Source: Liolophura sinensis (taxonomy: Eukaryota; Mollusca; Polyplacophora; Chitonida; Chitonidae). Taken from it: a stretch of DNA of 64,000 nucleotides. The notes under the pieces were generated by a model, which made no database searches, was not told where the DNA came from, and saw nothing but the letters and a program-made list of their open reading frames with translations. Position 1 is the stretch's first letter. The number at the start of each line of letters is the position of its first letter. The stretch lies in the NCBI RefSeq assembly GCF_032854445.1, contig NC_088295.1, forward strand, positions 78,644,028 to 78,708,027, in the 5' to 3' direction. The translations under genes were made by a program, and so were the position numbers. Positions 6,334 to 60,500 of the stretch are shown one piece after another.

Positions 6334-6419
6334 TATATTTCAAAACCCTTAAGTGCTCTGTACAGTTTAATAGTGTGATTAGTGTTCAAATTCCCGACAT
6401 CAGTAGTCTTGCTGCAAAC

Positions 6420-6540
6420 TGAGGATAGCCGTGGGTTTCCCCCATGTTCTGCCAAATTTTCTCCCACCATAATGCTCGCCTCCGTGGTATAAGTGAAATA
6501 TTCTTGAGTACAGCGTAAAACACCAATCAAGTAAGTACAT
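6420..6540 (+). mobile_element. SINE 3' fragment (lophotrochozoan tRNA-SINE family)
   Basis: Contains the family's GTGGGTTTCCCCC, CTCCCACCATAATGCT, GTATAAGTGAAATATTCTTGAGTA and CGTAAAACACCAATCAA blocks in order, with the tRNA-like head missing (5' truncated). Confidence 0.8.
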
Positions 6541-10790: not shown

Positions 10791-11216
10791 TAAGCAGACA
10801 TTAAAACGTAGTCTACAAGGCTAATGTCTGAATACTAATGTATGTGCACTACCCTATACTTTTATCCTCCCCACATCGGCTGTTTGCAATTCTAAGCGAT
10901 GATTTTTTTTCACAAATCCAACAGAAGTTAGCAATGACATTCACAAATTTTGTGTCGATCTTTCAATCGGCACACCAGGAATGTAATTATGAGGTGATGG
11001 TGCCACTGAGTGAGCTCCTCGCTAACATAGTCAGGAAGATTATTTGTCTTGGCATTCACGTCCCGCAAAAATTATTAAAAGTACAACATGTGCCACGCTG
11101 AATAACCGCCATCATACGACTAATTCTGTCAAATACTGTCTGTAGGAACAACGGATGCCTGGCTGTTGATCCCGATAAGACATAATACACGCACACCGTA
11201 CATGGAAGGTTTGTCA

Positions 11217-11350
11217 AAGTGCGGATGGTCGTTGGTTTCCGCCGGGCTCTGCACGGCTTCCTCCCACCATAATGCTGGCCGCCGTCGTATAAGTGAATAT
11301 TCTTGAGTAGGGCGAAACACCAATCAAATAAATAAATAAATAAATAAATA
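11217..11350 (+). mobile_element. SINE 3' fragment
   Basis: GCGGATGGTCGTTGGTTTCC...CTCCCACCATAATGCTGG...GTATAAGTGAATATTCTTGAGTA...AACACCAATC followed by an (AAAT)n tail. The tRNA-like head is absent. Confidence 0.85.
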
Positions 11351-32000: not shown

Positions 32001-35000
32001 TCCTATACTATACACCTGTCATCTACCATACACCTGTCCTATACTATATAACTGTCCTATACTATATAACTGTCCTATACTGTCTTACTGCATCTTACGT
32101 AAAGAATTTGAGCTAACATAGACAACTAGCTAGTCCACCAGAGCTGCTGTGGACCACACAATGATTTGTTGATAATTTTTGGCTTAAAACACCAATCAAA
32201 AAAGTAATTTACATGTCACAATTTATTTCTTCGTGTGTTACATTGCATATATGGGAATTTCTACAGACATTTGTCATTAAAACTGTGGTTGTCTCCATTT
32301 AACAGAATGGCAAGGCGCCCAGTCGTGGGTTGTCGGATGTATATAGAACTGGTGATTACGAAATTCCGGTGAGCAGTTGTTTGTACCGCATGTTTACGGT
32401 AAATTAAAGTAAATTAGGCAATTGAAGAGTTACATCAGAGGTCAGATAAAGTTTTGGCCATTCTCTCTGACAATGTACATTAAATATTTTTTTAAATAAT
32501 CAAAAAGTTTCAAACATAAGACTTTTATATTTTACCATCATTATTTAATAGATATTAGTCACCTTTTCATGAACACTTCAGCAGCACATTGTCTGATATT
32601 GTAAATGTACATTTCAGGCATGCAGCTTTAAATTTATTGCTCTTTTAATAAAATTTTATCTATCATTTGTTGCTCTTTTAATAGTATTTTATCTATCATG
32701 CTAAAATTGTCATGAAAGTTGTCCCTATATTGAAATATGTGTGTGAAATGTAACAGTGTTACGTTTCACAAATTTTGAATGAGTGTAAATTAAAAACAGC
32801 TATGATTTTTTCCTGGCCCTCACCATATATGTCACGGTTGAATGCGATTCTTAAATGCCTCTCATATGTTCTTTTTCCAATGATGAAACAGGCATTTTGG
32901 TACCTGTTTAACGCTTAGTTTGATGTTGATGTGATGATAGTTTACTATTACTGTGTTGTGTTCTTATGGTTAATGAAGTTTGACAAGACGTGTATATTTT
33001 ATTGCCTTCCTAGTTGAGCGTCCGTAATGAATCCATCCCTGTGTACTGTTCTCCAGACCCGTCGGCATTTGGCTCTATGGATTTACACGTACGTTGTCTG
33101 GTCTCTTTTATTTGTCTTTGAGGTATTGATTTGTCTCGGTTGATTCCCAGTTCATACAGTGGTGTTTTGTCTGTGTTGAACCCCCATTCACAGTGTACGC
33201 TTCCCCTAAATTTATAGAAATCGCGCGAATTGTCAATTAGTCAATAGCTGCAAATCCTGTGAATGCGTAGAAGGTCGACACTTTTGAAATCTTTAATCCT
33301 TAACTCTTTGTTTTGATTTGACATAATCCAGTTATAACCGATCTTACTGGACTCTTCGTGAACTGACGAATATTGTACGACTATATCCTCCAACATAAAT
33401 GAAATAATAGCGAATAGGTTCATGGCATTTCTTCCCACATGTTTTAATGGTCATTCGGCTAAATCATTTCAGTTTATGTAAGTAAAGCTACACTTGAGAA
33501 TATGAAGTAAGAAATAAACTATGCAGGCAGGTATTTTATTTCCTGAATGGATTTGATGGTCGAGTTTTTAAAGTAGTACACGTATATGTAAATGCATATG
33601 ATTTTGATGACTTTGAATTTAGGGCGAAGAAGACGAGCTAATTTACGAGATGATGTTACCAAGGACGAACTGGAATGTGAGTCTGGCAGACATGGACGTG
33701 AGCAATACAGTGATGACTCAGGGTAACTTTGGTGAGTCTCGGCTAGCTCTGTGGAATCACAATGTGGACAAAAGTCTCTGCACTCACGTGGGTCTCAAAC
33801 GTTTTCCAGGTAAGCTGTGATCTCCGTAGTCATTTTCAATAACAATGTCGTTAACTTAATCTATCATCAAGACCATCATGCATTTTCAAATAATTTTGTA
33901 CACACGTTGTATTTGGTTTATCCATGCAAAGGCCCACGGATTTGTTTACACTGCCGGCTTCATGAATCTGTTTAATTGATAAGAATATGTGATATAAAGG
34001 GAGCTGCTACCATGCACCAGTGATTAATTTCGTTAGAAAAAAAAATGAATTCGTAGAACGTTTAGAATCACCGGATTTGTTTTATACAACGGGGAGGTGG
34101 AAGCCACTTATTACTATTTATTGCGGTCAAAGATGGATTATATTATATGTAGGCTATCAGTAAATTTAACACTGAGTTGTCCTCAGGAAATCAAAAGTGC
34201 TAGGCTATTCCATTTATCTTATATTGAACGGCACATACTTAACTGGAGACACATGTACGTGACAATGTACCGTCTTGGCTGTGTATTAAAGACTACAAGC
34301 TCACGAAAAGGTTAAATTTGATTTTGACCTTTGATTTTGTCCAGGAAACGGCTCGGACCAACGGAAGAACTTGATAAACGGCGAGCTGGAGAAACTCAGG
34401 TCCCTGGATCGTTGTATTAGTGTCTTGGCCGTATTAGGGACTTCGACTGATCCGAACACTGGTGAGATGCCATGTCTATTCAGGTCTCGCGTCTTCTGTG
34501 AGAATGTACAAATTACGCAGTAATTAACCAGTATTATCTGTCATCGCTTATGTCGGCCATATTGGAGATAAAGCCTGAGTACACGATGGAGGCAGGTTAT
34601 TTCTCTTAGCGCAAGAATTATTTATTTTGGCAGGGACTTAAAACGCTACAGATAATCATACATGTGTATGCATACAATCCATGTTCATTAGCGCCATGTA
34701 AAATATGAATTTCGCTCGCACTTAAACAAACAAATGTAAACGCGACAGATGCAAATAACCTTGACAATCCCAACTTTTGTATCAATTGTTTTAAATCACA
34801 GGGCTTTATTCTGTAAATATCTGAGCTGTGTTTTTGCTTAAATTCATTCACAACAATTTAATACTCGAGTCCCTAACACAGCCGACAGCTCACCGTAGTC
34901 TCAGTTTCAGATTACCATCCAGTTTGGGTCATGCCTTAATGTTTCAGACTACCATCCAGTTTTGGTAATGTCTTAATGTTTCAGACTACCATCCAGTTTG

Positions 35001-38000
35001 GGTCCTGTCTTAATGTTTCAGACTGCCATCCACTTTGAGTCATGCTTTAATGTTTCAGACTACCATCCAGTTTGGGTCGTGTCTTAATGTTTCAGATTAC
35101 CATCCAGTTTGGGTCATGCCTTAATGTTTCAGACAGCCATTCAATTTGAGCCATTTCTTGATGTTTCAGACTACAATCCGAGATGGGTCATATATGAATG
35201 TTTCAGATTACCATCCAGTGTGGATCATACTTTAATGTTTCAGACAGCCATCCAATTTGGGCCATTTCTTGATGTTTCAGACTACAATCCGAAATGGGTC
35301 ATGTATGAATGTTTCAGATTACCATCCAGTGTGGATCATACTTTAATGTTTCAGACTACCGTCCAGTTTGCATCATGCCTAAAACTTCAGAAGACATTTA
35401 AATAATAGATGTATACAAAGCATCGACTCTCAGAATAAGGTAGGCCTAATGTTGTGGCATGTTGTCAGCGAACTGTGTCAGGGTGCGGCGTCGTGACTGG
35501 TATCTATGGCGTTGTGCTCCAATGAGGCGACACGTTTATCTGCAATGGGTCTTGCCTGCTAAAAAGAGACACCGTCGTAATATAATATGTCCGAAATAAG
35601 GTGGAAAGCGCGGCTGAACCCGAGGCGTACAAATTTGCACTGATTTCCAGTACTGTAGTCAGGCCCACTAGGTCAACAGCTCAGCGTGTGCCGAGAATAT
35701 ATCATCAGATATCCACAACAGTTATCAACAGTTACAACAACGACATACTTTTTGCACACTTTTGCTGAGATGAGGACTCATTCTCTATTCATCTATGTGA
35801 ATTTAGGAGTTTATTCCCATCTCTTCTTGTATTTTTAAAGGCGACAGGTTCTTGATATTAGAATGTACTGAGAGAGGATCTCTGCTGACCTACCTCAAAC
35901 AGAATCGATCTGAGAGTTCTGAAAAGGAGGAACTGACAGAGAAAAGGCTGACCAAGCTGTGTCAGGACGTGGCAAACGGGATGGAGCACATCTCCTCATA
36001 CTCGGTAAGACCGGGATCAAAACCGGGTTGGGGATTTTAAAAACTGTATTTGCAGTTTGAGAATTATTTTTACCCGCCATACAATCTAGTTTTAAGGGGC
36101 CTAAGGGTAAGACAACGCGCTAAGCACTACAGCATTTTATTCGACTTTCTCTAGTAATGAAAAAAAAAGAAATTGATGCAGATGTATCGTCAAATGCGAT
36201 GATAATCTTTAAAGTAAACCTATAGCGTGGATATTTGAGGGACTGTTATTGACAATTCCAAAGTTCTGTTCCTTTCTTTTAATTTGGCGATCTATGACAG
36301 ATTACCAACGTGGACCTGGCTGCGGAGACGGTCCTTCTGGACAAGTACCTGAATGCAAAGATCACTGGGATAGTACATTTTCAGGAAGAAGATCAGACAA
36401 TAGATAAGGTAAAGTCATCTCAAGCTACAGTCACCTCTAGGAGAAGATGCCCATTAGCGTAGCATACTCTAGGCCCAGACGAAAATTGACATTAAATTTT
36501 ATTTTATGATTATTGACTTAAAAATGTCCATTTTGATTGACGGATGGTATGCGAAAGTCTGTTTCGACTCATAGTTTCATATCGCTGGTTGCGTTTCATA
36601 TGAATGAAACAAGTTAGATAATATGTGCTTTTGTGAAATATTTAGAGAGTCATATCCCTATGAGAGTTTACTGTAAATATACTTATGGTGAATAAATACA
36701 ATACAATACAATGCAATACAATATTTCTAGGCTTTTCGGTGCACGTAATTGGTTATATACCTATTCCAGATCAGAGAAAGACAACGTTGGGATGCCATGG
36801 AGACCCTTGCTGATGGCCAGCACACTGTCCACAGTGATGTGTAAGTGTTCTTTGCAGAGCTATTAATTAAATGTTTTATGTCTATATAGATGAAGCGTAG
36901 TTCTCATCAATTACTCCCTATCCTCCAACTCTGTACTTGACTCTCCATCTATTGACTTTGTTTCCTGACTCTCCATCCCCTGTGTCTCTATCCAGTGACT
37001 TGACTCTATGACTCTCCTTCCGTTGATGCTGAACCCACAGTTCCCTGTCACAGATGGAGGGGCAGAGTTCTTGTCCCCTGACTCCCCATCCACTGGCTCT
37101 CCATGCCTTCCGGTCTGTTTCAACTTCTTCAGCCGTCTAAAGTCTAAGGTCAAGCAGTCATTTAGCCGACTACTGTAAGCTGGCTTCGAAAAAGTGACTA
37201 AGTCGTTTCCCTAACGTTAAACTGTCCAAAGCTTAGTCAGCTTACCATGTGACCGCTTTGCAGCAATCTGATTGGTAGAGTTCAAGATGATTATTGTTAA
37301 ATTGGCTTCAGAATGTAAGTAAATTAAATTACTATCTACAAATAAATGGAAAAGATGATAATTTCTTCTTAATTTTTGTTTTTAATACAGTTTACCAACG
37401 AAGGGCGATAACTCTCACAACAGACACTGGAAGGAAAATAACAATAACGGATTAGTTTTAGTGGTTTGCGAGCTTTATAAAAACCTTCATTTGTTGACAG
37501 AAGCCGATTTATTCCTATTTTTCTCAAATCGAATAAATTAACTTTCAAGAAAGGGACTCATGTCACTTCAAACGCCAAATTTTTCCTCTTAGCCACCTTT
37601 AAACGTTACTAAAGATTTTGAGCTATCTTTCAAACTCTAAGACGAAAAGCTTTAGTCGCTAGCCAGATATTTTGTTTCTGAAACGGGTTAGACAAAATTG
37701 CTAGTCGGCTAACTGAATTAGCTGTCTAAGCTTAGCTTTTAGAGTTTTTGTGAAACAGACCCCAGACTCTGCATCCACTGACTTGGATCGTACTGAATCC
37801 CACAGTGTTCTGTTACAGGCGGAGGTATGGGGTTCTTGTCCCCTGACTTCTTTCACTGAATACCACAGTGTTCTGTTACAGGTGGAGGTACGGGGGTCTT
37901 GTCCCCTGACTTCTTTCACTGAATACCACAATGTTCTGTTACAGGTGGAGGTACGGGGTTCTTGTCCCCTAACTTCTTTCACTGAATACCACTGTGTTCT

Positions 38001-40655
38001 GTCACAGGTGGAGGTACGGGGTTCTTGTCCCATTGTTCAGTTCGTTTACTGAATCCCACGGTGTTCTGTTACAGGTGGAGGTAAGGTGTTCTTGTACCCT
38101 GACTCCGTTCGCTGAATACCCCTGTCTTCTGTTACAGGTGGAGGTACGGGGTTCTGATGTGGGAGGTGTTTAGTCTAGGAGAAACTCCATACTCTGACAT
38201 CAGTGTCCAGGATCTTCACCACAAGCTGGAGTCTGGCTGTAGGCTAGGTCATCCTGCGTGCACTAGTACCATGGCGTAAGTGACGTATCAAAGTGACGTA
38301 CCTTTACAGTCAAACTAGCGCCAAATTGTATTTGACAAATGAGCTTTATAGTCATTTCATCTTCTCGCTACCTGTAGACACGAAGTTGCTACAGTCTCTA
38401 ATATTTTATATTCTCAAACTGGAGTTGTCAAGAATTTTGAATAATGCAACCTGTGTGACTTGTTAAGTTTATAGGCATGAATCACATTAGTATGCATCAT
38501 CCAAACAATACCGAAAGGCAGCATATCTATTGGTTTAAACTATTTAGTTTAGTACAGAACCTATTTTTAAGGTTAGTGTGACAGATTGCTATCTGTATAC
38601 TGTATATACATGCTTTTCTTATAAACCTGCGAATTAATGTTATAAATTACCTTACGTCCTTATAAAAGGTACATGATGATTTAGGTATATATCCCTTTTC
38701 TATCTACACGAAGATACGACATGATGATACAGGTACATATACCTTGTTTGTCTATATATATACGCAGATACGACATGATGATATAGGTACATACACCTCG
38801 TCTGTCTATATATACCAAGATACGACATGATGATATAGGTACATACACCTCGTCTGTCTATATATACCAAGATACGACATGATGATATGGGTACATATAC
38901 CTTGTCTGTATATATATACGAAAATATATCATGATGAGTGCATGGCAAGGTCTTCCAGCAACCTGCGGATGGTCGTGGGTTTCCTCAGAGTTCTGCCCGG
39001 TTTCCTCCCACCATAATGCTGACCGCCGTCGTATGATTGAAATATTCGTATGAGTGCGGCGTAAAACACCAATCAAAATCCAATCAAATCAAACAACATG
39101 ATATAGGCACATATACCTTGTCTGTCTATATATACGAAGGTACGACATGATGATATAGGTACATATACCTTGTCTGTCTATATATACCAAGATACGATAT
39201 GATGATATAAGTACATATACCTTGTCTGTATATATATAAAAAGATACGACGTGGTGATATAGGTACATATACCTTGTCTGTCTATATATACCAAGATACG
39301 ACATGATGATATAAGTACATATACCTTGTCTGTCTATATATACAAATATACGACATGCTGATATAGGTACATATACCTTGTGTGTCTATATATACAACGA
39401 TTCGACATGCTGATATAGGTATATATACTTTGTCTGTCTATATATACCAAGATAAGACATGACGATATAGGTACATATACCTTGTCTGTCTATAGATACC
39501 AAGATACGACATGATGATACAGTGTGCACAGTGAACATACATGTACCTGTTCTCTGCGAAGATAAAGTTTGATCATATACACCTTATTAATGGTGTTCAT
39601 GGGGTCTTCGCTGGCTTAGACGGTTAAAAAGCTCTGCTTCGATTTGACTACCAGGACCTTGATCAATGAGGTCACGTGTTCAAACCCAGATCTCATTGTT
39701 TCGGCTGCGGCTTTGTCAGGAATATGTCGAAATGTAGCGGATTACTGAGCGCCATCATTTAAGTGAAAAATCTTTGAGTATATCTATTAAATGACAGTCA
39801 AAAATTGAAAAATGCATGATAATATACCTCTGTACTACATATACCTTGTCTCCCTACTCAGATATGTACTGATGACAGAGTGCTGGAACGCCGACCCAAC
39901 TTCGAGGCCGTCTTTCACGGCAGTGTTGTCACGCATTCGGGATATAAGAAAGGGCGTACCTTTGGTGTGTATTGACTACAAAATGACAAAGCTATGAAAG
40001 ATTTTAAACATTAAACCCGGAAAATGTCTACAATAACGCTACTTTTCAAAGGTCATTGTATATTTAACACATTTTAGTAATTATTAAATGCCTTTTGTGG
40101 GATTGCAATTATTTTGCTTTGTTTAAATTGTACCATTATATAAGCAATATCTAATAATATAAGTGGGATGTTTTGTCTAGTTCATATTTGCTCAGGTTAT
40201 TGTGAAAACTTTGAAATTGATAAGAAAGTTTGACGGGCTGATTATGCGAAGGATCATACATGATTGAATGGACCAGACTTTCCCGCTTACAGTAGTTATT
40301 CGTATCTAAGCTGTGTATCCTTGTCTCTAATATGATGATATTTTGTCGACAAACTGGCAAAGTGTTACTCAGGCAGTGTAGGCGGGCATTGGCCAATTCA
40401 GTTTGGACCCTTGTCACTACTGCGCGGGGAAAGACGCCCGATTATTTACCATCACCACAGGGTTTTTTTAATGGCTCTGCCAAAGCTTTTTTCCAGAGTT
40501 CGCCATTGAAATATAGGCATACATTGTATACATGCATTTATTGTTCGACTTGTTTTTAATGAATATACAGCTGTTTACACGATGTTCTTTTCATCTTGCA
40601 GTCACATGATTTGGTTTCTCACCGTGAAAGTGGCCTATACTGGACAGCTGAATAG
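13635..40655 (+). CDS. VWC/EGF receptor with tyrosine pseudokinase domain (complete, 20 exons)
   Basis: Single-pass membrane receptor. Exons: 13635-13692, 15942-16157, 21153-21296, 22052-22255, 22694-22837, 24570-24719, 26101-26244, 28578-28724, 29055-29213, 30558-30715, 32306-32368, 33014-33088, 33623-33809, 34345-34461, 35841-36004, 36301-36408, 36770-36840, 38138-38275, 39862-39964, 40602-40655. All junctions are GT-AG and the frame is kept for 867 residues. Order: signal peptide 1-22, VWC 23-91, EGF 92-139, VWC 140-207, five EGF 208-455, transmembrane 460-483, juxtamembrane to about 565, kinase fold about 570-850, short tail. The beta3 Lys (K613), alphaC Glu (E630) and catalytic Asp (D715) remain. 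The HRD motif reads NVD, the catalytic-loop Asn is T720, and DFG is GIV (733-735), so catalysis is unlikely. The start codon has an ideal CACCATGG context. I know no named family with this architecture. A tail-to-tail paralogue lies at 50578-63213. Confidence 0.9.
15285..15497 (+). repeat. 29-bp tandem repeat, alternating A/B units, intron 1
   Basis: Seven copies of a unit CCATAACCTGCATGATGTTG plus TACCTATA. Units alternate between CCTGCATGATG and GATGCATGACG forms, showing that a 58-bp dimer has been amplified. Confidence 0.85.
15942..16157 (+). CDS. Receptor exon 2: first VWC-like domain
   Basis: 72 codons in phase 1-1. The cysteine pattern C..C.CAYGSLSC....P.C, then GQCCPVPFC at the end, is that of von Willebrand factor type C modules, which bind growth factors or matrix in other proteins. 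Donor GAAA|GTAAGT sits at 16158 and is the exact left edge of a tandem array. Confidence 0.85.
16158..16530 (+). repeat. 40-bp tandem array beginning at the exon 2 splice donor
   Basis: About nine units of GTTAAGTTACTGGTCTCC plus ATATTTTAATGTGTCTGTGAG. The first unit is the donor itself: GTAAGTCGGTCTCCGTATTT. Later units therefore carry donor-like GTTAAGT sequences. Confidence 0.8.
16676..16930 (-). mobile_element. SINE, near full length, intron 2
   Basis: Reverse-oriented: TTATTCATTTGATTGGTG and ACGCCGTACTCAAGAATAT blocks, GGAAACCGGGCAGAGCCCG, then a tRNA-like head ending GCCATGGAGGCTCC. The B-box complement TTTGAACTCACAGCGACC is intact. Confidence 0.9.
17775..20998 (+). mobile_element. CR1-like LINE, degenerate copy, in receptor intron 2
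   Basis: Sense-oriented to the host gene. The pieces in order: CGDVDSNPGL and HINARS before the endonuclease; endonuclease fragments (SETW, GGGVAIYCK, LDLVITD, LANLDHC); reverse transcriptase (FLDVSKAFDKAW, FADDASLLEE); and a C-terminal Cys/His block (CPNCTHLCENVLHYFLECPKY). The 3' end AACAAATAAAG plus (CATTA)n is shared with the minus-strand copy at 44030-47995. Frames break repeatedly, for example just after the NFG of the endonuclease GDFN motif, and the 5' end is missing. It is inactive. Confidence 0.9.
21153..21296 (+). CDS. Receptor exon 3: EGF-like domain 1
   Basis: 48 codons in phase 1-1. The pattern WYGDNCSKKCGRC...CDISSGVCTP.KPLCLPGFVGDMC is the short eight-cysteine EGF/laminin-type repeat seen in scavenger-type receptors such as MEGF/Draper. 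It most resembles exon 5 of this gene. Confidence 0.85.
22052..22255 (+). CDS. Receptor exon 4: second VWC-like domain
   Basis: 68 codons in phase 1-1. Same cysteine layout as exon 2: CGKHCTCNFGAISC, then EGQCCRERFC. The order VWC-EGF-VWC-EGF (exons 2-5) implies duplication of a two-exon module. Confidence 0.85.
22485..22600 (-). mobile_element. SINE fragment, intron 4
   Basis: TTTATTTATTTGGTTGGTG and ACGCCGTACTCAAGAATATT blocks, then GTGGGAGGACACCGGGTAGAGCC; it stops before the tRNA-like head. Confidence 0.8.
22694..22837 (+). CDS. Receptor exon 5: EGF-like domain 2
   Basis: 48 codons in phase 1-1. DGRYGVGCSQVCGQC..GTCNISTGVCTP.NPPCLPGYFGEKC, close to exon 3 in both length and sequence. 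Confidence 0.85.
24570..24719 (+). CDS. Receptor exon 6: EGF-like domain 3
   Basis: 50 codons in phase 1-1. EGKYGRSCFGECGKC.GGNAQCNVITGFC.....KCLPGWKGNTC. Acceptor AAATTCCAG, donor AAA|GTAAGT. Confidence 0.85.
25222..25779 (+). repeat. (AATAT)n pentanucleotide satellite, about 111 uninterrupted copies
   Basis: About 555 bp of perfect 5-bp periodicity in receptor intron 6 with no substitution visible. The long open frame on the opposite strand (YYIIL repeats) is a by-product. Confidence 0.98.
25960..26030 (+). other. tRNA-like fragment with A box only
   Basis: GATAGCACAGTTGGTAGAGC fits a polymerase III A box (TRGCNNAGTNGG), but no B box follows and the arms do not fold into a tRNA. Probably the head of a broken SINE. 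Confidence 0.4.
26101..26244 (+). CDS. Receptor exon 7: EGF-like domain 4
   Basis: 48 codons in phase 1-1. DGFFGPDCLERCGACATGQCSP and TGICKPDEPLCKSGYSGDQC show the same eight-Cys pattern. The acceptor GTTTACAG sits just after an AT-rich stretch. Confidence 0.85.
27117..27402 (+). mobile_element. Full-length SINE, intron 7
   Basis: Best complete copy in the window. The tRNA-like head has A box TGGCTTAGTTGGTTAACGC and B box GTGAGTTCAAGTCC; then the CGGATGGTCGTGGG body, CATAATGCTGGCCGCC, CTTGAGAACGGCGTAAAACAC and an (AAAT)n tail. It defines the family's orientation. Confidence 0.92.
27790..27990 (+). mobile_element. SINE of a second subtype, intron 7
   Basis: GGGGCCTCGCTGCATGGCTC head, CACGTGGTTGAATCCAG as B box, TTTTCTCCCACGATTC and GGACGTAAATCA. 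Related copies lie at 39598 and 56795. Confidence 0.65.
28150..28412 (-). mobile_element. SINE, tail-truncated, intron 7
   Basis: Starts at CCGTACTCAAGAACATTTCA, lacks the AAAT tail and runs to an intact tRNA-like head ending GCCACGGAGGCC. Confidence 0.9.
28578..28724 (+). CDS. Receptor exon 8: EGF-like domain 5
   Basis: 49 codons in phase 1-1. GRFGPGCAWECGGCATGRTSC and GECPEAEPRCTPGHTGALC. GC-rich relative to its surroundings. The orthologous exon of the inverted copy is 63067-63213. Confidence 0.88.
28828..28915 (+). mobile_element. SINE 3' fragment, intron 8
   Basis: TTCCGGGCTCTGCGCGG, TCTCCCACCATATTGCTGG, GTATAAGTGATATATTCTTG, then a short AAATAAAT tail running into the CA repeat. Confidence 0.75.
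28917..29004 (+). repeat. (CA)n microsatellite beside exon 9 acceptor
   Basis: Impure CACAGA then a pure CA run, ending about 50 nt before the exon 9 acceptor at 29054. It presumably grew from the SINE tail next to it. CA runs can bind splicing regulators such as hnRNP L. Confidence 0.95.
29055..29213 (+). CDS. Receptor exon 9: EGF-like domain 6 and membrane-proximal linker
   Basis: 53 codons in phase 1-1. GTWGQECQLNCSNNC, then GGCLPGFYGSLCEPAQSTM. It ends the ectodomain; only a short linker precedes the membrane helix. The copy at 61572-61730 is nearly identical. Confidence 0.88.
30558..30715 (+). CDS. Receptor exon 10: transmembrane segment
   Basis: Phase 1 to 0. A hydrophobic helix with VGIGVG and FILAIIVICT is followed by a basic stop-transfer stretch (NQRKARKN) and RRDSYLSPVALN, a possible phosphorylation region. 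The - copy has lost two codons in the basic stretch. Confidence 0.9.
30716..32095 (+). repeat. Minisatellite (CCTACACCTGTCCTATA)n, intron 10
   Basis: About 1.4 kb of irregular 16-24-bp units starting within 40 nt of the exon 10 donor. The exon's last bases (CTACCTCAGTCCTGTA) resemble the unit (CTACACCTGTCCTATA). The inverted copy carries the same array at 59825-60790, so it predates the duplication. Overlapping Pro/Tyr/Leu-rich open frames are artefacts. Confidence 0.85.
32306..33088 (+). CDS. Receptor exons 11-12: juxtamembrane region
   Basis: Exons 32306-32368 and 33014-33088, both phase 0 and multiples of three. Tyrosines in GDYEIP and IPVYCSP could be SH2-docking sites if phosphorylated by another kinase. 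GDYEIP aligns with DDYEMP in the - copy and NESIPVY is identical, so these motifs are conserved. Confidence 0.8.
33623..36004 (+). CDS. Receptor exons 13-15: kinase N-lobe and alphaE region
   Basis: Exons 33623-33809, 34345-34461 and 35841-36004. The glycine loop is degenerate (TQGNFGES: first Gly replaced by Thr, following Val by Ser). VGLK provides the beta3 Lys (613), GELEKL the alphaC Glu (630). A hinge-like FLILECTERGSLLTYLKQNR and LTKLCQDVANGMEHIS (alphaE) match receptor tyrosine kinases. Confidence 0.88.
34905..35385 (+). repeat. 37-bp tandem repeat, intron 14
   Basis: About 12 units of TTTCAGACTACCATCCAG plus TTTGGGTCATGTCTTAATG. Each unit contains TTTCAG, an acceptor-like string, but I could not relate it to a neighbouring exon. 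Confidence 0.85.
36301..36840 (+). CDS. Receptor exons 16-17: degenerate catalytic and activation loops
   Basis: Exons 36301-36408 and 36770-36840. NVDLAAETVLLD replaces the canonical HRDLAARNVLLD, and KITGIVHF replaces KI.DFGL. The activation segment has no tyrosine. RWDAMETLA replaces RWMAPESL, and HSDV leads into the next exon. Confidence 0.9.
37030..38137 (+). repeat. Array of repeated 3' splice sites before exon 18
   Basis: Five clear 63-67-bp units at 37805-38137 and an older unit at about 37030-37085, each with TTCTGTTACAG|GTGGAGGTACGGGG, that is, the acceptor plus the start of exon 18. AG positions are 37818, 37881, 37944, 38007 and 38074; the real one is at 38137. A 650-bp transposon separates the older unit. 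Confidence 0.9.
37112..37761. mobile_element. MITE-like DNA transposon inside intron 17
   Basis: Perfect terminal repeats GGTCTGTTTCA / TGAAACAGACC, and longer imperfect inverted subterminal repeats (both ends include TTAGCCGACTA). About 650 bp with no transposase frame. It splits the 3'-splice-site array. Confidence 0.75.
38138..38275 (+). CDS. Receptor exon 18: kinase alphaF region
   Basis: 46 codons, phase 2 to 2. SDVWRYGVLMWEVFSLGETP is a textbook kinase subdomain IX, so the fold is conserved although catalysis is lost. Its first 18 nt (GTGGAGGTACGGGGTTCT) are repeated in the upstream array. Confidence 0.9.
38669..39525 (+). repeat. About 50-60-bp tandem array, intron 18
   Basis: Units ACATATACCTTGTCTGTCT plus ATATATACCAAGATACGACATGATGATATAGGT, about 13 copies, interrupted by a SINE at 38940-39096. 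The unit resembles the exon 19 acceptor region (ACATATACCTTGTCTCCCTA, then CAGATATGTACTGATGAC). Confidence 0.85.
38940..39096 (+). mobile_element. SINE fragment inserted in the intron 18 array
   Basis: GGATGGTCGTGGGTTTCC...CCTCCCACCATAATGCTG...GCGGCGTAAAACACCAATC. Repeat units flank it on both sides, so it arrived after the array formed. Confidence 0.85.
39598..39800 (+). mobile_element. Second-subtype SINE, intron 18
   Basis: GGGTCTTCGCTGGCTTAGAC head with A-box character, CACGTGTTCAAACCC B box, GCGCCATCATTTAAGTG body. Ends about 60 nt before exon 19. Confidence 0.65.
39862..39964 (+). CDS. Receptor exon 19: kinase C-lobe end
   Basis: MTECWNADPTSRPSF is kinase subdomain XI, followed by helix RIRDIRKGVPL. 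I end the exon at TTTG|GTGTGT. Reading on gives VCIDYKMTKL and a stop at 39997, but the inverted copy reads VCIVYATTALLS there, so that extension is not conserved. Confidence 0.75.
40602..40655 (+). CDS. Receptor exon 20: conserved C-terminal tail exon
   Basis: SHDLVSHRESGLYWTAE and stop, in phase 0 after acceptor TTTTCATCTTGCAG. The inverted copy has SHDVVTHQDSGLYWTAE with the stop at the same place, which supports coding. Tail Tyr in GLYWTAE. Confidence 0.78.
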   Translation, partial: SHDLVSHRESGLYWTAE

Positions 40656-47999: not shown

Positions 48000-48880
48000 A
48001 CAACTATTAATCAGAAATGAGGGCCAATCTTCCGTGTAGTTTTGAATGGTAATTATTTATCTACTTATCGGATAAACAACGATTTGGGCTTACTGGAAGG
48101 ATACTGAAAAATGGTCAAAGACAATACAAATAGATTGTACGTTTTGTTAACCGTGACTTTTCACTTTTGGTACCCTGCAGCTTGGTACACAAACATAATG
48201 ACGTCATTTTCCCGTCTACTTCATATGTTTATTGTTCCCTAATATTTGTAGTTTAATTTGGAATTTATCCGGTAATTGAACTGGAATATTTAATGTGTCA
48301 TGGCCAAATGCCAGTATGGAAGCCGGATAAAGTCATCATCGTACCACCGTACCGTGGTTACATCACCCGGTGATATCATGATGATACGAAGCGATGGCAC
48401 GATGGCACAAAGCGATGGTACGAGCCGGTGGTAAGATGATGGCCTTGTCCGGCTTCCATACCTCACCGATGAAAACAGTGTTCAACATAGTTACCCATTC
48501 ATTTAAAAACGCACGTAACAGTGTACACTCATTATGCATTGTGTCTTAATAAAATGGGCAAGCACTTGTATGGGAGAAGGAGTGAGGGAATACCCTGGCG
48601 TTGGGACGGTTTTACGGTGATTTGAACGCTGGGCGATAAATATTAACCCATCGATCGCCGGCGAAGTAAGGTTTTTCACTCAAGGTTTCAAATGGCCAAT
48701 CCGGGATAACCGAAAGTGTGTCACTTTGGAAGATCTAAGGGATGTTTGTTTTTTAATCAGACGCTGTTTTACTGTCACTAAGCCCTTTTTGAAGACCAAG
48801 CATGTTTTCTTTATATGCATATTCCTCGAAATTCCTTCCTTCATAGTTAAATCAACTGACTCAGACGTCATATAATTTAT
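48000..48880. other. Intergenic stretch with one inverted-repeat element
   Basis: No exon recognised. It contains a hairpin element at 48314-48461, listed separately. Confidence 0.4.
48314..48461. repeat. Small inverted-repeat (MITE-like) element
   Basis: Arms of about 35 bp: GTATGGAAGCCGGATAAAG and CCTTGTCCGGCTTCCATAC are inverse apart from a few changes. The interior is rich in CGATGG/CACGATGG. Similar GCGATAG/CGATGG words recur in the tandem array at 61023-61290. Confidence 0.65.
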
Positions 48881-48884
48881 TTAT

Positions 48885-49290
48885 GTATTTGATTGGTGTT
48901 TTACGTCGTACTCAAGAATATTTTACTGACACGACGACAGCCAGCTTTATGGCGGAGGAAACCGGACAGAACCCGGGGGAAAGCTACCACCATCCGCAGG
49001 TTGCTGGACGCCCTTCCCATTTACGGAAGGAGAGAAAACTCCTCATCCCCAGTCTGACGGCGGACAGCATTACGCTGGGAGGAAACCGGGCGAAGCCCGG
49101 GGGAAACCCACGACTATCCACATAAGCTCTCTCTGCTTCGACTGCAGCTTTAAGCCAGGAACCTAGCAAGAGGCGGTGGTTTGCTCCCAATCCTCTTGTT
49201 TTCCATCCCATAAACCTGATCGGCCGTTATATAAGTGAAAAAGCCTTGAGTACGGCGTTAAATATCAATAAATAAATAAAGAAATAAAGA
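48885..49290. mobile_element. Composite SINE fragments in opposite orientation
   Basis: 48885-49120 is a reverse-oriented copy (TTTGATTGGTG, ACGTCGTACTCAAGAATATT, two GGAAACCGG blocks). About 49195-49290 is a forward 3' end (TATAAGTGAAAAAGCCTTGAG, then AAATAAAT). Two insertions, or one rearranged. Confidence 0.7.
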
Positions 49291-51598: not shown

Positions 51599-54500
51599 CT
51601 GAATGGGAAGACAAGGTTTTTGTTGTCAATGCTATCTTTAAATATTATTTATTTGAGTGGTGTTTCACGCCGTACTCAAGAATATTTCACTTATACCACT
51701 CTGGCCAGTACCATGGTGTGAGAGACGTATCCTTATAGGCGTTATGGTGTATACACGTATCGTCTTGCATTTATCTATTTATTTATATCTTAGTGTTGCC
51801 TAATCAAGAATTTCCTCGTATGTAAATGGCGATGGTCGGTAAACCGCCTGGTACCTGATATAGCTTCAACTAACGTAGCGAGAGCTGGAGTAGAACACTG
51901 TAGAAGAAAACTATAGGAATTTAAATAATCAAAACCGACCAACAGATATTTGATAAGAAAGGCCAGATAATGCTTTTCAACACACTGAATCTATCAGGTT
52001 CAAACTCGTCAATCATACCAATCACTGCCATTCAAAATGTTTAACCACTCGTATTATAGTTACTATAAAATATTAGAGAAGAAACTTTAGAGATGCATAT
52101 TAGAGATGCAAGCTGATTTAGCTTTCAATAGTCGTTCTATATTATACAGGAAACGAAAAGACGCCTGCGTGCAATGACAGTACAACGCGTTTGTCAAATG
52201 AAACTAGCGGATACTCGAAAATGCAAGTCACCTTGATTGATCAAAGACTTACGTCATGGTACGAGTGTCTGCAGGATGGCCCAGCCTACAGCCAGACTCC
52301 AATTTCTGAAGAAGATCCTTGACACTGATGTCAGAGTATGGAGTTTCTCCTAGACTAAACACCTCCCACATCAGAACCCCGTACCTCCACCTGTAACAGA
52401 ACACAGGGGTATTCAGTGGATGAACTCAGGGAACAAGAGACCTGTACTTCCACCTGTAATAGGAGAGACTGATTCAGTAGATAAAGTCAAGGAACCCTGT
52501 ACCTGTAACATGAAATCATGAAATACCTTGAGGGAGAGTTTGGAGACAAGAACCCTGTAACAGAAAACAAGTTGGACAAGTCAGGAGACAAGAAGCTTGT
52601 ACCTCCAGCTGTAACAGGAGATTGTGATAATACCTGGAGAGGACAAGAACCCTGTACCTCCAGCTGTAACAGGGAATAGTGAGAATACCTGGAGAGGACA
52701 AGAACACTGTACCTCCACCTATAACAGAAAACAGTTGGATAGGTGGATAGAGAGTCAGGGAGTAAGAAGCCTGTACCACCACCTGTAACAGAAAACAGTG
52801 GGATACGTTTATGGATAGTTAGGGAGCAGGAAGCCTGTACCAACTCCTGTAACAAGACACATTTGTATTGAGATATCTGTGCCTCCAGCTGTAACAGGAG
52901 ATAGTGAGAATGCCTGGAGAGGACAAGAACCCTGTACCTCCAGCTGCAACAGGGGATAGTGAGAATACCTGGAGAGGAAAAGAACACTGTACCTCCACCT
53001 GTAACAGAAAACAGTGGGATACGTGGATAGAGAGTCAGGGAACAAGAACCGTGTACCTCTACCTGTAACAAGACATACCTGTATTGAGAGTCAGGCGACA
53101 AGAACCCTGTACCTCCACTTGTAACAGAAGACGGTGGAAAGCTGGCTATTTTAACAGTTACGGCTATCAGGGCTATATCATTACAACCAATACATGTAAA
53201 CAGATGTATACAGCTTGCATATCCATGTATTTCTAGTGCTGCACATTATTTGTTTGATTGTTTCTTCCTTTGGTTTGTTTGTTTAGTTGTGGTTTTAACG
53301 TCCCTTTCAACGCCATTTTGGTCATTAAACGATTTTACTGTCTTCAATTATTCCCAGGTTAGCTTTTAGAATACACTTTTCATGTTGATGTGGTGGTTGG
53401 AATATGGATAACCGATCTCATGGTGTATCTGTATTGTATAGAATGCCACTCCTCATTGTGATATATCTATGGCGCCACCTCTCTTGATCCATAAGACACC
53501 AAGCACGACACCTCACCCAGTTACAGTATCTGAAAACTTGCCGATCAGCACGAATGTATCAAGATTGCTAATTTTGTAAGTTTAAGTATGACCAGACTCG
53601 GGAATGATCCTGATCATGTCACTTCAGTCACATACTATAGATTTATTTATTTATTTCATTGGTGTTTCATGTCGTACTCAAGAATATTTTACTTACACGA
53701 CTGCAATCAACATTATGGTGGGCGGGAAGCCGGCAGAACCCGGTGGAAACACACCACTATTTTCTGAGGTATGTCACCATCGGCGTACATTGGCCTACAT
53801 ACGGCCCTTTTTTTTTTCAAAGTTCCATAGCTTTTTCTTTGGTTTCCAAACACGCATGAAACAAGAGTCCAAAACATTGGGAAAAAATGTGTGTCAGGGC
53901 TTGTTTTAATAGACAGAATTCATGTTCTTACTCGTGTATTTTGGCCGATGTATTTAAAAGCCCTTTTGGAGCAGGTAAGCTATGTTTTCTCCCAAGTGAG
54001 AATAGCTTGAAACTCAAAATTCATTTGGAAACCAATGAAATATTTATGAAACTTAACAAAAAAAAGAAAGAACCAAAATGTCGTAAGTGGGCAACTGTAA
54101 AGACGACATAGAGATACGTGTGGATAGGTAAGGAAGGGCCACTTACACATCACTATGTACAGTGTGCTGACCAGAAGCCAGGGTCTCCATGGCATCCCAA
54201 CGTTGTCTTTCTCTGACCTGGAAAGGTATGTTTAGATACGCCTAAGTATATATAACAAAACGCTTCTACCAAAAAGCTTTGAAATGTATTAAGTTGATGG
54301 GATTTTCTACAGTCGATATTTTACAACACACAATTATGTATATCCAAGGATGATGTTGGCAAATAGTCACACATCACCGGTAAAATCCCACCTCTTGTCA
54401 ATTTACCTCATTTAGAGCTTTATTCTAGCTGTTAGCATAAATGCTTAAAAAATTCCAACCTTAACACCATGACCTAAGAAGAAAAAGGGGCAGTGAAGAT

Positions 54501-57500
54501 CTCGAAATGAAAGATATCAAAGATATAATTCCCATTTTACTGTTACAATGTATCTATGAATAGATAAAGAACACTATTCCTTTATAGAGATCTTCTCCCT
54601 ATTGTAATTTCACCTGATCTTGTGTCTGATCTTTTTCCTGAAAATGCACCATTCCAGTGATCTTTGCGTTCAGGAACTTGTCCATAAGGACCGTGTCTGC
54701 AGCCAGGTCCACGTTCGTAATCTGTAGAATTAAGCACGATTAAAGTTAATTAGATCGTTAAATAAAGGAACAGAGCTTTAAAATGTTAACATCAGATCAT
54801 CAAACAATCAACAGGTAAGACTTATTTGACTGCAATGATTGGCAATAGCTCCGACATCCCGCAAACAGTCAACCGTGTAGGGTTTTGTGTCGTCAGGTTT
54901 CGTGTAGTCTCCCACTCAGGCCGCTCGTTAAGTGAATGGTCTATTTCAAAGGATGAGATCTAAAAACTCGACCAAGCCAGCCGACGGAGCACACACCCAG
55001 TATGAGGAAATGTGCCCTGTCCTATCGAGTATGAAGAGATGTGCTCTGTATTACTGAGTATGAGGACATGTGGTCCATCTTACCGAGTATGAGGAGATGT
55101 ACTCTGTCCTTCCGGGTATGAGGGGATGTGCTCTGTCTTACCGAGTATGATGAGATGTGCTCCGTCTAAGCGAGTGTGGGGAATGTGTTCTGTCTTACCA
55201 AGTATGAGGGGATGTGCCCCATCTTACCGAGTATGAGGAGATGTACTCTGTATTACCGCGTATGAGGACATGTGCTCTGTCTTACCAAGTATGAGATGTT
55301 CCCCTGTCTAACCAAGTATGATGAGATGTGCTCTGTATTTACCAAGTATGAGGAGATGTGCTCCATCTTGCCAAGACAAAAGAGATGTGCGCTGTCTTAG
55401 CAAATATGAGGAGATGTACGCCGGCTTACCAAGTATGGGGAGATGTGCACTGTCTTATCGAGTAATAGGAGACGTTCTCAGTATTACCGAATATGAGGAG
55501 ATGTGCTCTATCTTACCGAGACTGGAGAGATGTGTTCCGTCTTACCAAGTATGGGGAGATGTGCTCCGTTTTACCGAGTATGACGATATATGCTCCGCCT
55601 TACCGAGTATGAGGAGATGTATTTCATCCCGTAAGCCACGTCCTGACACAGCTTGGTCAGCCTTTTCTCTGTCAGTTCTTCTTTTTTAGAACTTTCAAAT
55701 CGGTTTTGTTTGAGGTAGGTCAGCAGAGACCCTCTCTCACTACACTCCAAAATCAGCAAACTGTCCCCTTTACAAAATACAACAAGAGGTACTAATTAAC
55801 TCCCCAAAATCTCATAGAATCGGGAATGTGTCAACTTCTTAGCAATAGTAAGCATTACAGTGGGTCGTTGTTGTGATTATTAAGACGTCTAGCGCATTTC
55901 TGAAGATACTTGTGCTCTAGACCCGGGAACTGAGGATAAAAAAGGTAAAATTATCCCGTGGCCTCAGCACAGAACTGGTAACCTGTGCTAATTTGAAAGT
56001 AATTTACATCTACAATTTTGGACAACTCTGAAGTCTTGAACCAATCTGGATGGTGATCTGAATCAGAGACCATGTTCCACTGACGTCGATGGTATGAATT
56101 AATGCAGTTTTCTCGGTTTAAATCAGCAAATAGTGATTGCCGGAATTCATATCTGCAAAAACTGTTGGATTCTTGTGTTTTAACACTTGTTTGTTTAACT
56201 TTATGTATATATTTGCATAAACCTTTCAGTCATTTTAGAGTGGACTTAATTATCAAATGGCTTTGCCTATTCACGTGTGTAGGACGTACCCGCTTCGCTA
56301 TTTAACGCGAAATTCACCATTTATATGCCTCCAACATGGCCGATATAAATTTGTGTACGTACTTTCATTTCGTCTTACCAGTGTTCGGATCAGTAGAAAC
56401 CCCTAATACGGCCAAGACATTAATACAACGATCTAGGGACCTGAGTTTCTCCAACTGGCCGTTTATCAAGTTCTTCCGTTCGTCTGAGCCATTCCCTGGA
56501 AAATATCAAATTTCATCACCATTCTTGTAATTCCACTTCGTGACATTTACAGCCCATCCATGTGTTCTAAACCTTCAATGCACAATAAGACAGCAGATTA
56601 AGATATATCTCCAGTGAAATATGTTGTATGATCAAAGAGTATCTTAATAAATTTTCTGATCTGTTGAAGGCAAGTCACTTTTAAATGTCTTTTACTGATA
56701 ACCTATAAGGAATTCACTTTTGAGGGAATAAGTTTACGGCAAAAGACATTTTCAACAGGAGTAAGTATTTCCACACCAATGTGACAATCCCTGTGTATGG
56801 CTGTGTTGACTCCAACGGTTAAAGCGCTGACGCAATGCGATTATCAGGTCGCGTGTTCGAATCCAGCTGTAGCCGATTCTGCGACGGCTTCATATTTAGA
56901 GATTGGCAAAGCACCTGGCAAATGTCGTCGGTTTTCACCACTCATAAATATTACCTCCTTCACGTGAGTGAAATATTCTCAAGCACGGCGTTCATCACGA
57001 ATGAAAAAATAGATCTGCATTCGGTAAATCAAAACGTTTCCCTAATTGGCGAAATTAACTGCTAAAGCATTGTAACATGTCCTTTTACCACATACATTTC
57101 CCCATTATACAGATTCATGAAGCAGAAAATGTAAATAAATTATTCCGTCTTTGTAAAGATAAACACAATCTCTCCAAACCAAAGACAGGGTATATACAAA
57201 ATTCTTCGAAAATGACAGGCTTGGCGAAAATATTAATTTTCCGTTCAAACTGGAAGGTTACACCGAGTGCAATGGTACGCAAATGTCTACACAGTTCATA
57301 TGTCTCATATCTTACCTGGAAAACGCTTGAGACCCACGTGAGTGCAGAGACTTTTGTCCACATTGTGATTCCACAGAGCTAGCCGAGTCTCTCCAAAGTT
57401 ACCCTGAGTCATGAGTGTGTTGCTCACTTCCATGTCTGCCAGACTCACATTCCAGTTCGTCCTTGGCAACATCATCTCGTAAATCAGCTCGTCTTCTGTG

Positions 57501-60500
57501 TCCTAAATTTCAAGTCACGATGAAATTACATATAAATGAACCACTTCAACACCAGATCACCAAATCCACTAAAGCTTTGAATGCATGCAATTTCTCTCGC
57601 CTTTATTTCTCGCTTTATATTTCCACGTCTAACTTATTTATGTAAATTGAAAACGAAGAACCTTTATGCTGAATAGCCTTTGAGAGCATGTTTCAAAGTC
57701 ATAAAACTGTTCGCGATTATTTCAGTGGTCTTAGCCGAGGTAAGCTTACAATTTTCGTGAATTAATAAAAGTGTTCAGAAACATCATTCATAACTGGTTA
57801 TGCCAGATTAAAACACTGATTCAAGAACCTAATATAAGATCCAAAATTCTCTGCCATCAGACGACTTGCCAAATGCCAAAAAGAAAACTGACAATTCACA
57901 CGAATTTTGATGAACTGTGCAAAATCGCTCCAACAAATCGAACATTGTAAACGTGACTTAAAGAAGACAAATCAAACTATAAAACGCATTGTTAGGAAAG
58001 AGACGAGACAACATACCTGTATATCCATAGAACAATAGACCGGCGGATATGGAGAACTGTACACAGGGATGGATTCATTGCGCACGTTTATCTAGAAAGT
58101 CAATAAAATGTACATATCCATTAATCCGGAAAACAAAAGGTGATGGTTAACTGTCCACACAAATACTAATTGTGGACAGTGTTGCATGGACAATGCATAA
58201 ATTTATCAGCTAAGACGTCTCGTTTGATAGGAATTAGCTCAGGAGCTGTCTATTTTGGTAACTTCGACTTCCCGATAAGGTACACTAATACGACCATGAT
58301 CAGTTTGTCTAATGAGTGTAAGTCATTATATGAATCCATTGCATATATGAAGCCTGCGCCTTCATATATGCAATGGATATTTGTCAAAGCTACAGTTATA
58401 GCCAAAGTCACAAACAATGCATCCAATTTCAAAATCCTTTAGCATTAGTCTAAAGCATTAGTCTAAAGCTCACATAGTTATCCATCAGTTACCAGTATAC
58501 AGTGCAATGATCTGAATGTCGATTTGAACTATCAAATTACGGCCACGTGAATTAACTCCGGTCATGCAGTCTTTATGAGACTTTTGATGTAACATTTAAA
58601 GGTGAAGACCTCTAAATGAACCAATTAAAACTATAAAAAATATAATTTCATTTATTTTATTATTTTTTTTAACTTTTCTTGAGAAAAGAGTGGACTTCAA
58701 ACTATAAATAATGTATTGCATTTATGTTTTAACTTTTCTTGTGAAAAAAGTTAAAGGCGCTCAAACATTTGAATTCTAAGATGGGCTTTATGGACAATAC
58801 TATAAGAGGTTAGGAACTCTGACGTCACAAGAAGTTTTTCAACTGTTGTAACGACTTTGAATGTTAGAATAACTCTTTTTCCCACCAGTGAAAGATTATT
58901 GAAATAAAGTTGTCAAAACTCCTTCCTTCTGGTAAACATCAGGAAAAAAGGTGATGTGACGTCAGGCTCCCTTGATACCATCAGTACGTGTCACATAAAC
59001 CCCACCATAGTTTTCAAATATTTGAATGTCCTTCAACACTCTTAAAAAATATGGAGAAATATAACAATGTATTTTTACGCGTAGTTTTCAGTTGTCTGTA
59101 CGATGAATCTTGTTTCATATTTTAGCTTTCTTGTACTTTAAAATTGCTTGACCTCAGTATTACACCCCTGAACATTAATGTGCAAGTACAAAGTGACTCA
59201 CCGGCATTTCGTAATCGTCGGTTTGACCCAGGAAGTTACGACTAGGTACACTGGTATTCTGTTTAATGAAAAAAAACAGAATTTTAACGACTAATGTTTA
59301 TACTAAGGCAAACATGTCATGCAACAAGCAAATAATTCTAAGAAAAGCATTTTAATGTGTCAAGATGGTTTAACTAAGCCAGAAATCCACTAACTCTATA
59401 TGCAAATCTTGATCGACGATCCAGTATGCTAGCCCTAGCGTGCCCTGCAGCAGGTCTTTCCAGACACAACGCCGCGATGGAGTCAAAGTCAAATTGCTTC
59501 CAGCCATAGAAATGGAATTTAAGTGAAATATTCATGAGTCCAGCATGCAAAACCTGTCAAACATCTCCATGTAGGGTTTACATGAATATACCCAGTGTTT
59601 TCATTGGCTTAAAATTCATGTAAGGTGAAAAAACACTGTAGATTCCGTACATGTATGTACGTGTATTTGGTCGCTTGAGCCGGTAACCAAGAATTTTCTG
59701 ATGGGCGTTTGTGTTCTGGTTATTGCATAACAGGACTTACAGAATTGCCGCAGCAGTCGATGTCTGATCGATACCAACCAAAAAAATGGTATCATAGACA
59801 AGATTGTCACTCAGACGCTTTTAGCACCAGCGTGGGATAGATGTAGGACAGACGTAGCTGGCGTGGGACAGGTGTAGGATATGTGTAGGACTTTTTGTTT
59901 ATGCATTTTTTGAGTGGTGCTTCACGCCGTAGCAAAGAATATTTAACTTATACGACCACGGTCGACATTATGGTGGGAGGAAACCCCGCAGAGCCCGCGG
60001 AAAATCCACGGGCCTCACACATGTGTAGGACAGATGTAACATAAGTGTAGGTTAGGAGTAGGATAGGTGTAGGATAGGTGTAAAATAGGTGTAGGTTAGG
60101 TGTAGGACAGGTGCGGGACATGTTTAAGTTAGAAGTAGAGTAGATGCTGGATAGGTGTAAAATAGGTGTAGGTTAGGTGTAGAACAGGTGCGGGACATGT
60201 GTAAGTTAGGAGTAGGACAGGTGCGGATAGGTGTATGCTAGGTGTAGGCTAGAAGTAAAACAGGTGCGGGATAGATGTAGGGCAGGTGTAGGACAGATGT
60301 AAGATAGGTGTAGGTTAGGAGTATGGCAAGTGCGGGCAGGCGTAGGGCAGGTGTAAGACAGGTGTAGGATAGGAGTAGAACAGGTGTGGAATAGGAGTAG
60401 AACAGGTGTAGGATAGGAGTGAGACAGGTATAAGATAAATGTAGGTTCCGAGTAGGACAGGTGTAGGATAAATGGAGGACAAGTGTAAGGTAAGTGTAGG

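Follow-up and report, generated by a model that had tools for sequence, protein, structure and literature searches.

In the minus-strand member of an inverted gene pair in the chiton Liolophura sinensis, the end of one coding exon and its donor have been multiplied into a 29-bp minisatellite (array A) that runs from the exon into the following intron. We consider it likely that array A is a tolerated and apparently neutral boundary minisatellite of the 'mirage' kind described in amphioxus, which arose by tandem duplication in the lineage of the minus copy, and that it is not a buffer against donor loss. A mirror array of acceptors lies in both members of the same gene pair, and further arrays of the donor type were found at 4 of 64 exon loci sampled elsewhere in the genome, one of the four being weaker than the rest.

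The host genes and the unit of array A

The window, i.e. the whole stretch of 64,000 nucleotides that was analysed (C1:78644028-78708027), contains a pair of paralogues in inverted orientation, each a receptor-like gene with a domain resembling a tyrosine kinase; the joined exons of the minus copy match Pfam PF07714 with an E value of 7.5e-51. The EGF-like exons found upstream, for which the Pfam match was weak and below the cut-off, probably belong to the receptor gene. Over 292 codons the paralogues displayed dS and dN values of 0.309 and 0.064 respectively (ratio 0.21), and both receptor copies appear to be under constraint. HRD and DFG are the usual kinase motifs; the corresponding positions read NVD and ITG in both copies (33629-39955 and 57496-51505), so that both look like pseudokinases and together look like a conserved pseudokinase-like receptor pair.

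Array A is a head-to-tail repeat read on the minus strand from 55620 to 54995, to which TRF assigned a period of 29 and 21.7 copies. Wrap-around alignment on the same strand gave 22 rows, 20 of them full length, in which the unit consists of 22 nt of exon end followed by 7 nt of intron start (a 29/29 match to 22 exon plus 7 intron bases). Row 1 is the real exon end (55620-55604) with its donor, and the copies lie on the intron side, i.e. the array adjoins the real boundary and begins 17 bases inside the exon. The first-pass annotation had described about 21 tandem copies at 54991..55603; these are confirmed as 21 intronic copies together with the exon end, and the array extends slightly past that interval. 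The coordinates of this and the other features are collected in Table 1. The host intron is 882 bp in the minus copy versus 296 bp in the plus copy. Gain of the intron itself by tandem duplication does not fit these data, as the array-free plus copy also has it (36005-36300).

Table 1. Features of the gene pair and its surroundings in the window, and junction arrays at loci outside it
Feature	Position	Strand	Basis or remark
Array A, 29-bp minisatellite, 22 rows, the real exon end counted as the first	54995..55620	-	TRF, wrap-around alignment
Coding exon of the minus copy, kinase-like domain, ...GMKYISSYS/, start approximate	55604..55768	-	Translation, paralogue alignment, Pfam PF07714
882-bp intron holding array A; real donor TCG/GTAAGG at 55603	54722..55603	-	
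Next exon of the minus copy (ITNVDLAADT...)	54614..54721	-	
Founder 29-mer, last 22 exon bases plus GTAAGAC, single copy	35983..36011	+	29/29 match; sole 0-mismatch match in the genome
Homologous exon of the plus copy, ...GMEHISSYS/, start approximate	35840..36004	+	
Homologous 296-bp intron of the plus copy, without array	36005..36300	+	
Array B of the plus copy, 63-bp unit: 3' splice site TGTTCTGTTACAG and exon start GTGGAGGTACGGGGTTCT with intron sequence between, 6 rows	37774..38155	+	Last row enters the real exon start at 38138
Array B of the minus copy, 14 diverged rows, 3' splice site and exon start	52373..53137	-	Last row enters the real exon start at 52390
SINE-like copies	6406-6540, 11195-11349, 16663-16797, 22482-22589, 28180-28310, 38942-39077, 48876-49020, 53641-53760, 59894-60011		
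L029, kinase, exon ...YRVMLECWNK/			45-bp unit without 8 exon-end bases
L028, kinase, exon ...ILLWETVTM			67-bp unit
L058, myosin, exon ...EDQCVII			66-bp unit, 17 exon bases kept
L066, myosin			32-bp unit with a short stretch of exon, GT in 8/18 units; the weakest case

The relationship of the unit to the exon ends of the two gene copies was assessed by alignment, and the similarity lies far above chance. The majority consensus unit agrees with the plus-copy 29-mer at 28/29 positions, whereas shuffled consensus units (10 shuffles) reached at most 21/29 anywhere in the window, and chance similarity was rejected on this ground. The last 17 exon bases are identical in the plus copy, the minus copy and the majority unit, and in columns -22 to -18 of the 21 intronic units 79 of 105 bases agree with the GGAGC of the plus copy versus only 29 of 105 with the GAAAT of the neighbouring minus exon. 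The earlier proposals that the unit lies closer to the other copy's exon than to its own neighbour, and that it was captured from ancestral exon sequence, are thus both borne out, the second also by the 29/29 match in the plus copy. In addition, the plus-copy intron was searched for a remnant of the unit and none was found, the best match being 15/29 against a mean of 15.5 for 200 shuffles, in agreement with the proposed absence of the array from that copy. The plus-copy 29-mer is itself bracketed by the hexamer CGGGAT (35977-35982 and 36012-36017); these direct repeats were not relied on as a mechanism of birth, since slippage between them would give a period of 35 bp and not 29.

We also searched the assembly (609,464,459 bases in 632 contigs), which was published as Liolophura japonica with 632 scaffolds (PMC11068029), the name having since been corrected to L. 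sinensis (PMC12441733). A pattern search for the unit allowing up to 3 mismatches found, as a lower bound, seven places, namely the exon end of the plus copy (0 mismatches) and six array units, and the reversed control gave no match. In a further search of the DNA of array A, where counts are again lower bounds, it matched itself alone at the sensitivity of the search. The exon protein matched just the two gene copies at E values up to 0.001. A dispersed satellite, for which unrelated loci had been proposed as the place to look, was therefore rejected.

Decay of the units and consequences of distal donor use

The units of array A differ from one another by a mean pairwise divergence of 0.236, and from the plus-copy 29-mer by a raw mean of 0.145. 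Divergence does not rise with distance along the array and neighbours are no more alike than distant units, giving a star-like appearance which fits a single burst of amplification followed by independent decay. The age of the units, taken as their corrected divergence from the founder, is 0.161, compared with 0.154 for half the synonymous divergence of the paralogues over 292 codons; array and gene pair are thus similar in age, and either may have come first. Among the 20 scorable intronic units GT is kept at the donor column in 14 and the full GTAAG in eight. It had been claimed that each copy carries the exon end plus GTAAG; the origin from exon end and donor stands, and the universality of GTAAG does not. 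The donor columns retain 0.853 identity versus 0.851 for the exon-derived columns, a comparison of just 20-21 units and hence of low power, which gives no sign of selection on the donors in either direction. Since donor columns decay like the remaining columns, neutrality, the last of the options offered previously, is the one that fits best.

The real donor pairs with U1 at -8.7 kcal/mol and is the strongest of the 22, none of the 21 distal units being stronger. Eight distal units that keep GTAAG nevertheless come close, with energies of -8.0 to -8.2, a gap of at most 0.7 kcal/mol from the real donor, and on this ground leakage to distal donors is quite possible. The reading frame that each donor would produce was also examined. 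A premature stop follows from use of every one of the 15 distal unit donors that have GT, the last partial unit included: the GTAA of the second unit itself brings an in-frame TAA, and the sole donor that precedes it causes a frameshift that runs into a stop within the next exon. Beyond the real donor the array has 25 GT sites in all, 24 of which lead to a stop no later than the next exon's end; the exception, at 55584, does not belong to a unit donor and would change the frame. This indicates that the spare donors cannot restore the protein, and alternative exon ends drawn from array A, if made, would be unproductive.

The course of events that we favour begins in the lineage of the minus copy, where a 29-bp segment comprising the last 22 exon bases and the first 7 intron bases would have been tandemly duplicated and amplified into the intron, presumably by slippage or unequal crossing-over and at about the time when the two receptor genes arose. 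Such a duplication would leave the exon with its end and donor undamaged, and the first donor, being also the best match to U1, is probably the one used; array A would then be tolerated because normal mRNA can still be made. The distal donors would subsequently have decayed as ordinary intron sequence.

This account has to be weighed against two other origins and three possible functions. That array A predates the gene duplication and was lost from the plus copy is possible, if the less probable order of events, given the near-equality of unit divergence and half the synonymous divergence and the presence of array B in both copies; it would, however, need a clean loss, as the plus intron holds no remnant. 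The greater likeness of the units to the plus exon than to the exon beside them might also be expected if the unit had been copied from the plus gene into the minus gene by gene conversion, and not from the minus gene's own ancestral exon. We regard this as very improbable, as the array starts at, and in register with, the exon end of the minus copy itself, and the mismatch is accounted for by a few substitutions that the minus exon acquired later.

Among the functional readings, a meaningful use of the distal donors, producing stop-carrying transcripts that tune expression of the minus copy, is unlikely though the strongest of the three. The small energy gap between the eight GTAAG units and the real donor and the stop that follows every distal unit donor with GT are in its favour, as is the human 6-16/IFI6 gene, where two downstream repeat units are said, in the accessible part of the literature, to serve as donors; the donor columns, however, display no extra conservation, and splicing is reported to be normal in amphioxus despite such arrays (PMC3087553, PMC3902484; accessible text). 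We give less credence still to a role of array A as clustered U1 sites, or as further splicing or processing signals, which would enhance recognition of the true donor or suppress premature polyadenylation. All nine GTAAG motifs of the minus-copy intron, the real donor included, lie inside the array, and intronic minisatellites in C. elegans have been linked to splicing choices (PMC4039745, as far as its accessible text goes), but the U1-matching columns are not preserved and the plus copy, which has no array, keeps an open and constrained reading frame. Least credible of all, to the point of being negligible, is the suggestion in the first-pass annotation that the spare donors buffer loss of the main one. 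Many GT and GTAAG sites do lie close downstream, yet the unit length of 29 is not a multiple of three, GTAA itself puts TAA in frame, and no distal unit donor is both in frame and free of stops.

Junction arrays elsewhere in the gene pair and the genome

A second type of array, which the first-pass annotation did not contain, is found in both gene copies, immediately upstream of the exon for WRYGVLMWEVFSLGETPY. The gene pair thus holds a donor array in one copy and an acceptor array (array B) in both. In the plus copy three of the six rows are identical to the consensus at 60 to 62 of 63 positions. Use of the upstream acceptors listed for array B would again give a premature stop, in 5/5 cases in the plus copy and 12/12 in the minus copy. 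Array B mirrors array A at the 3' splice site.

Several other repeats were noted in the window. TRF detected a 37-bp array of 12.8 copies in the plus copy (34904-35377), the best match of which outside itself is 29/37 at 56029 in the minus copy (shuffles reaching at most 25), and which is possibly a copy-specific expansion of sequence common to both copies. At 25223-25778 the pentamer ATAAT is repeated without error in 111 copies (100% match by TRF). Two diverged LINE-like reverse-transcriptase remnants lie in opposite orientation beside the receptor genes, at 17782-20614 (+) and 47759-44355 (-), and a SINE-like interspersed element of approximately 120-150 bp with an AAAT-repeat end is present in many copies on both strands; papers were searched for pieces of the window's interspersed repeat and none was found.

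We sampled 64 exon loci outside the window, comprising 16 kinase-domain, 30 myosin-head and 18 ABC-transporter loci. The kinase loci were the remainder of 30 fetched, 14 in the window's own gene pair having been left out before counting; the myosin-head loci were 30 fetched from 81 matches; and 19 ABC-transporter loci were fetched, from which one (L089, with 11 in-frame stops) was dropped. All four exon-end arrays found in this sample are of donors, with acceptor arrays at 0/64, and inspection of the 18 ABC-transporter loci for junction arrays revealed none. The 46 kinase and myosin loci were also scanned automatically with 20-mers; when at least 3 copies were required, seven donors and no acceptors were flagged, with 0 in the reverse-complement control, although three of the seven donor flags proved to be purely intronic arrays. 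In a looser scan the reverse-complement control gave no match for array A or for three of the loci (L028, L058, L066); for L029 it gave one, versus six forward matches of the boundary 20-mer. As the looser scan mixed two half-units at L058, and the best flags of the automated scan at L029 and L058 fell off the true donor, the printed sequence was relied on for these loci. The automated scan was applied to the 18 ABC-transporter loci as well and flagged L083 and, at two copies, L085. The array near the ABC-transporter exon L083 was left uncounted, as it starts approximately 12 bp past the donor and has no clear exon sequence, and those near L050, L060, L064 and L085, likewise flagged, are intronic and not at the junction.

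Minisatellites make up approximately 11% of the sampled sequence (9-13% across the window and the samples of the 64 loci). Junction arrays were found at 4 of 128 sampled edges versus approximately 14 expected from coverage (naive binomial P = 0.001), an expectation in which coverage mixes thresholds of at least 2.5 copies (the 16 kinase loci) and at least 2 copies (the other loci) and in which edges are the ends of matches and not annotated exon ends. Targeting of splice junctions by minisatellite birth is thus unsupported, and in this small and approximate sample there appear to be fewer junction arrays than the density of minisatellites would predict, as might be expected if many are harmful and the survivors are those that leave the true site intact. 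We accordingly favour the view that such arrays would stem from the abundance of minisatellites, which are very dense in this genome, and not from any targeting of splice sites. The published repeat table for Liolophura gives, in its accessible part, 0.08% for simple repeats, microsatellites and RNA (PMC11068029), and the minisatellite class may have been missed there or filed as unclassified.

These observations suggest that mirages may arise more widely than in amphioxus, as a result of a high density of minisatellites in introns. A broader proposition, which we put forward tentatively and think rather less probable than not in its full form, is that the minisatellite-rich chiton genome repeatedly turns splice junctions, at several per cent of exons, into tandem arrays; mirages would then be a general route to spare donors and acceptors and not an amphioxus oddity. 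They would constitute a permanent stock from which unproductive splicing, altered exon ends and novel introns could arise, and would show the spliceosome reliably picking the outermost of many near-identical sites. The occurrence of junction arrays at several per cent of the sampled chiton exons is in this respect of greater interest than array A alone. Illumina RNA-seq of five tissues, namely digestive gland, foot, gill, gonad and heart, has been reported for Liolophura (PMC11068029, accessible text) and could show distal-site use directly. Natural cases of choice among near-identical splice sites are few, which makes such choice hard to study, and here one genome provides several: donor arrays in kinase and myosin loci, and an acceptor array in two paralogues. 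The paralogue pair in particular, in which one intron has a donor array and the other does not, offers a natural test of splice-site choice.

Comparison with known boundary repeats

The human 6-16/IFI6 (G1P3) minisatellite, which reportedly has a 12-nt unit, resembles array A in being a tandem repeat at an exon end with multiple donors. It differs in that donor use is reported there for two downstream repeat units (Turri et al., 1995; accessible part), whereas the donors of array A are known from sequence alone. In human segmental duplicates, minisatellite expansion in internal tandem repeats at exon-intron boundaries is reported to alter the borders in recent paralogues (PMC2812944); according to the accessible text these repeats make exons or introns longer and may give rise to introns that are new, whereas here the array-free copy has the same intron. 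The same difference applies to the Rogers model, as cited in the available part of PMC3087553, in which introns are gained via tandem duplication of AG/GT proto-splice sites: tandem duplication with splice signals is common to both, but no new intron has resulted here, as both copies have it.

A search of the open-licence literature for a boundary minisatellite in a mollusc found none in the text accessible there, which is no proof of absence. In another spiralian, the earthworm, a metallothionein gene carries intron repeats of minisatellite length with duplicated fourth-exon sequence that is missing from the final transcript (PMC12783039). These repeats are possibly related to the present ones, although the accessible text of that report contains no statement that the unit spans a splice junction.

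The closest counterparts are the amphioxus mirages, minisatellite-like duplications of exon/intron boundaries described at 5' and 3' boundaries in globin (BflGb6/BflGb9) and Adh3 genes, with splicing apparently undisturbed (PMC3087553), to which PGBD5 and TnC were later added (PMC3902484). As far as the accessible text of these reports shows, the chiton arrays share with them the tandem duplication of the boundary at both 5' and 3' sides, with many but not all copies keeping their splice signals. They differ in host, a mollusc and not a cephalochordate, which is no mechanistic requirement, and the units of array A are diverged and star-like, without sign of homogenization. Normal splicing and length instability are, in the available parts, features of the amphioxus reports, whereas the chiton arrays are known from the sequence of a single assembly.
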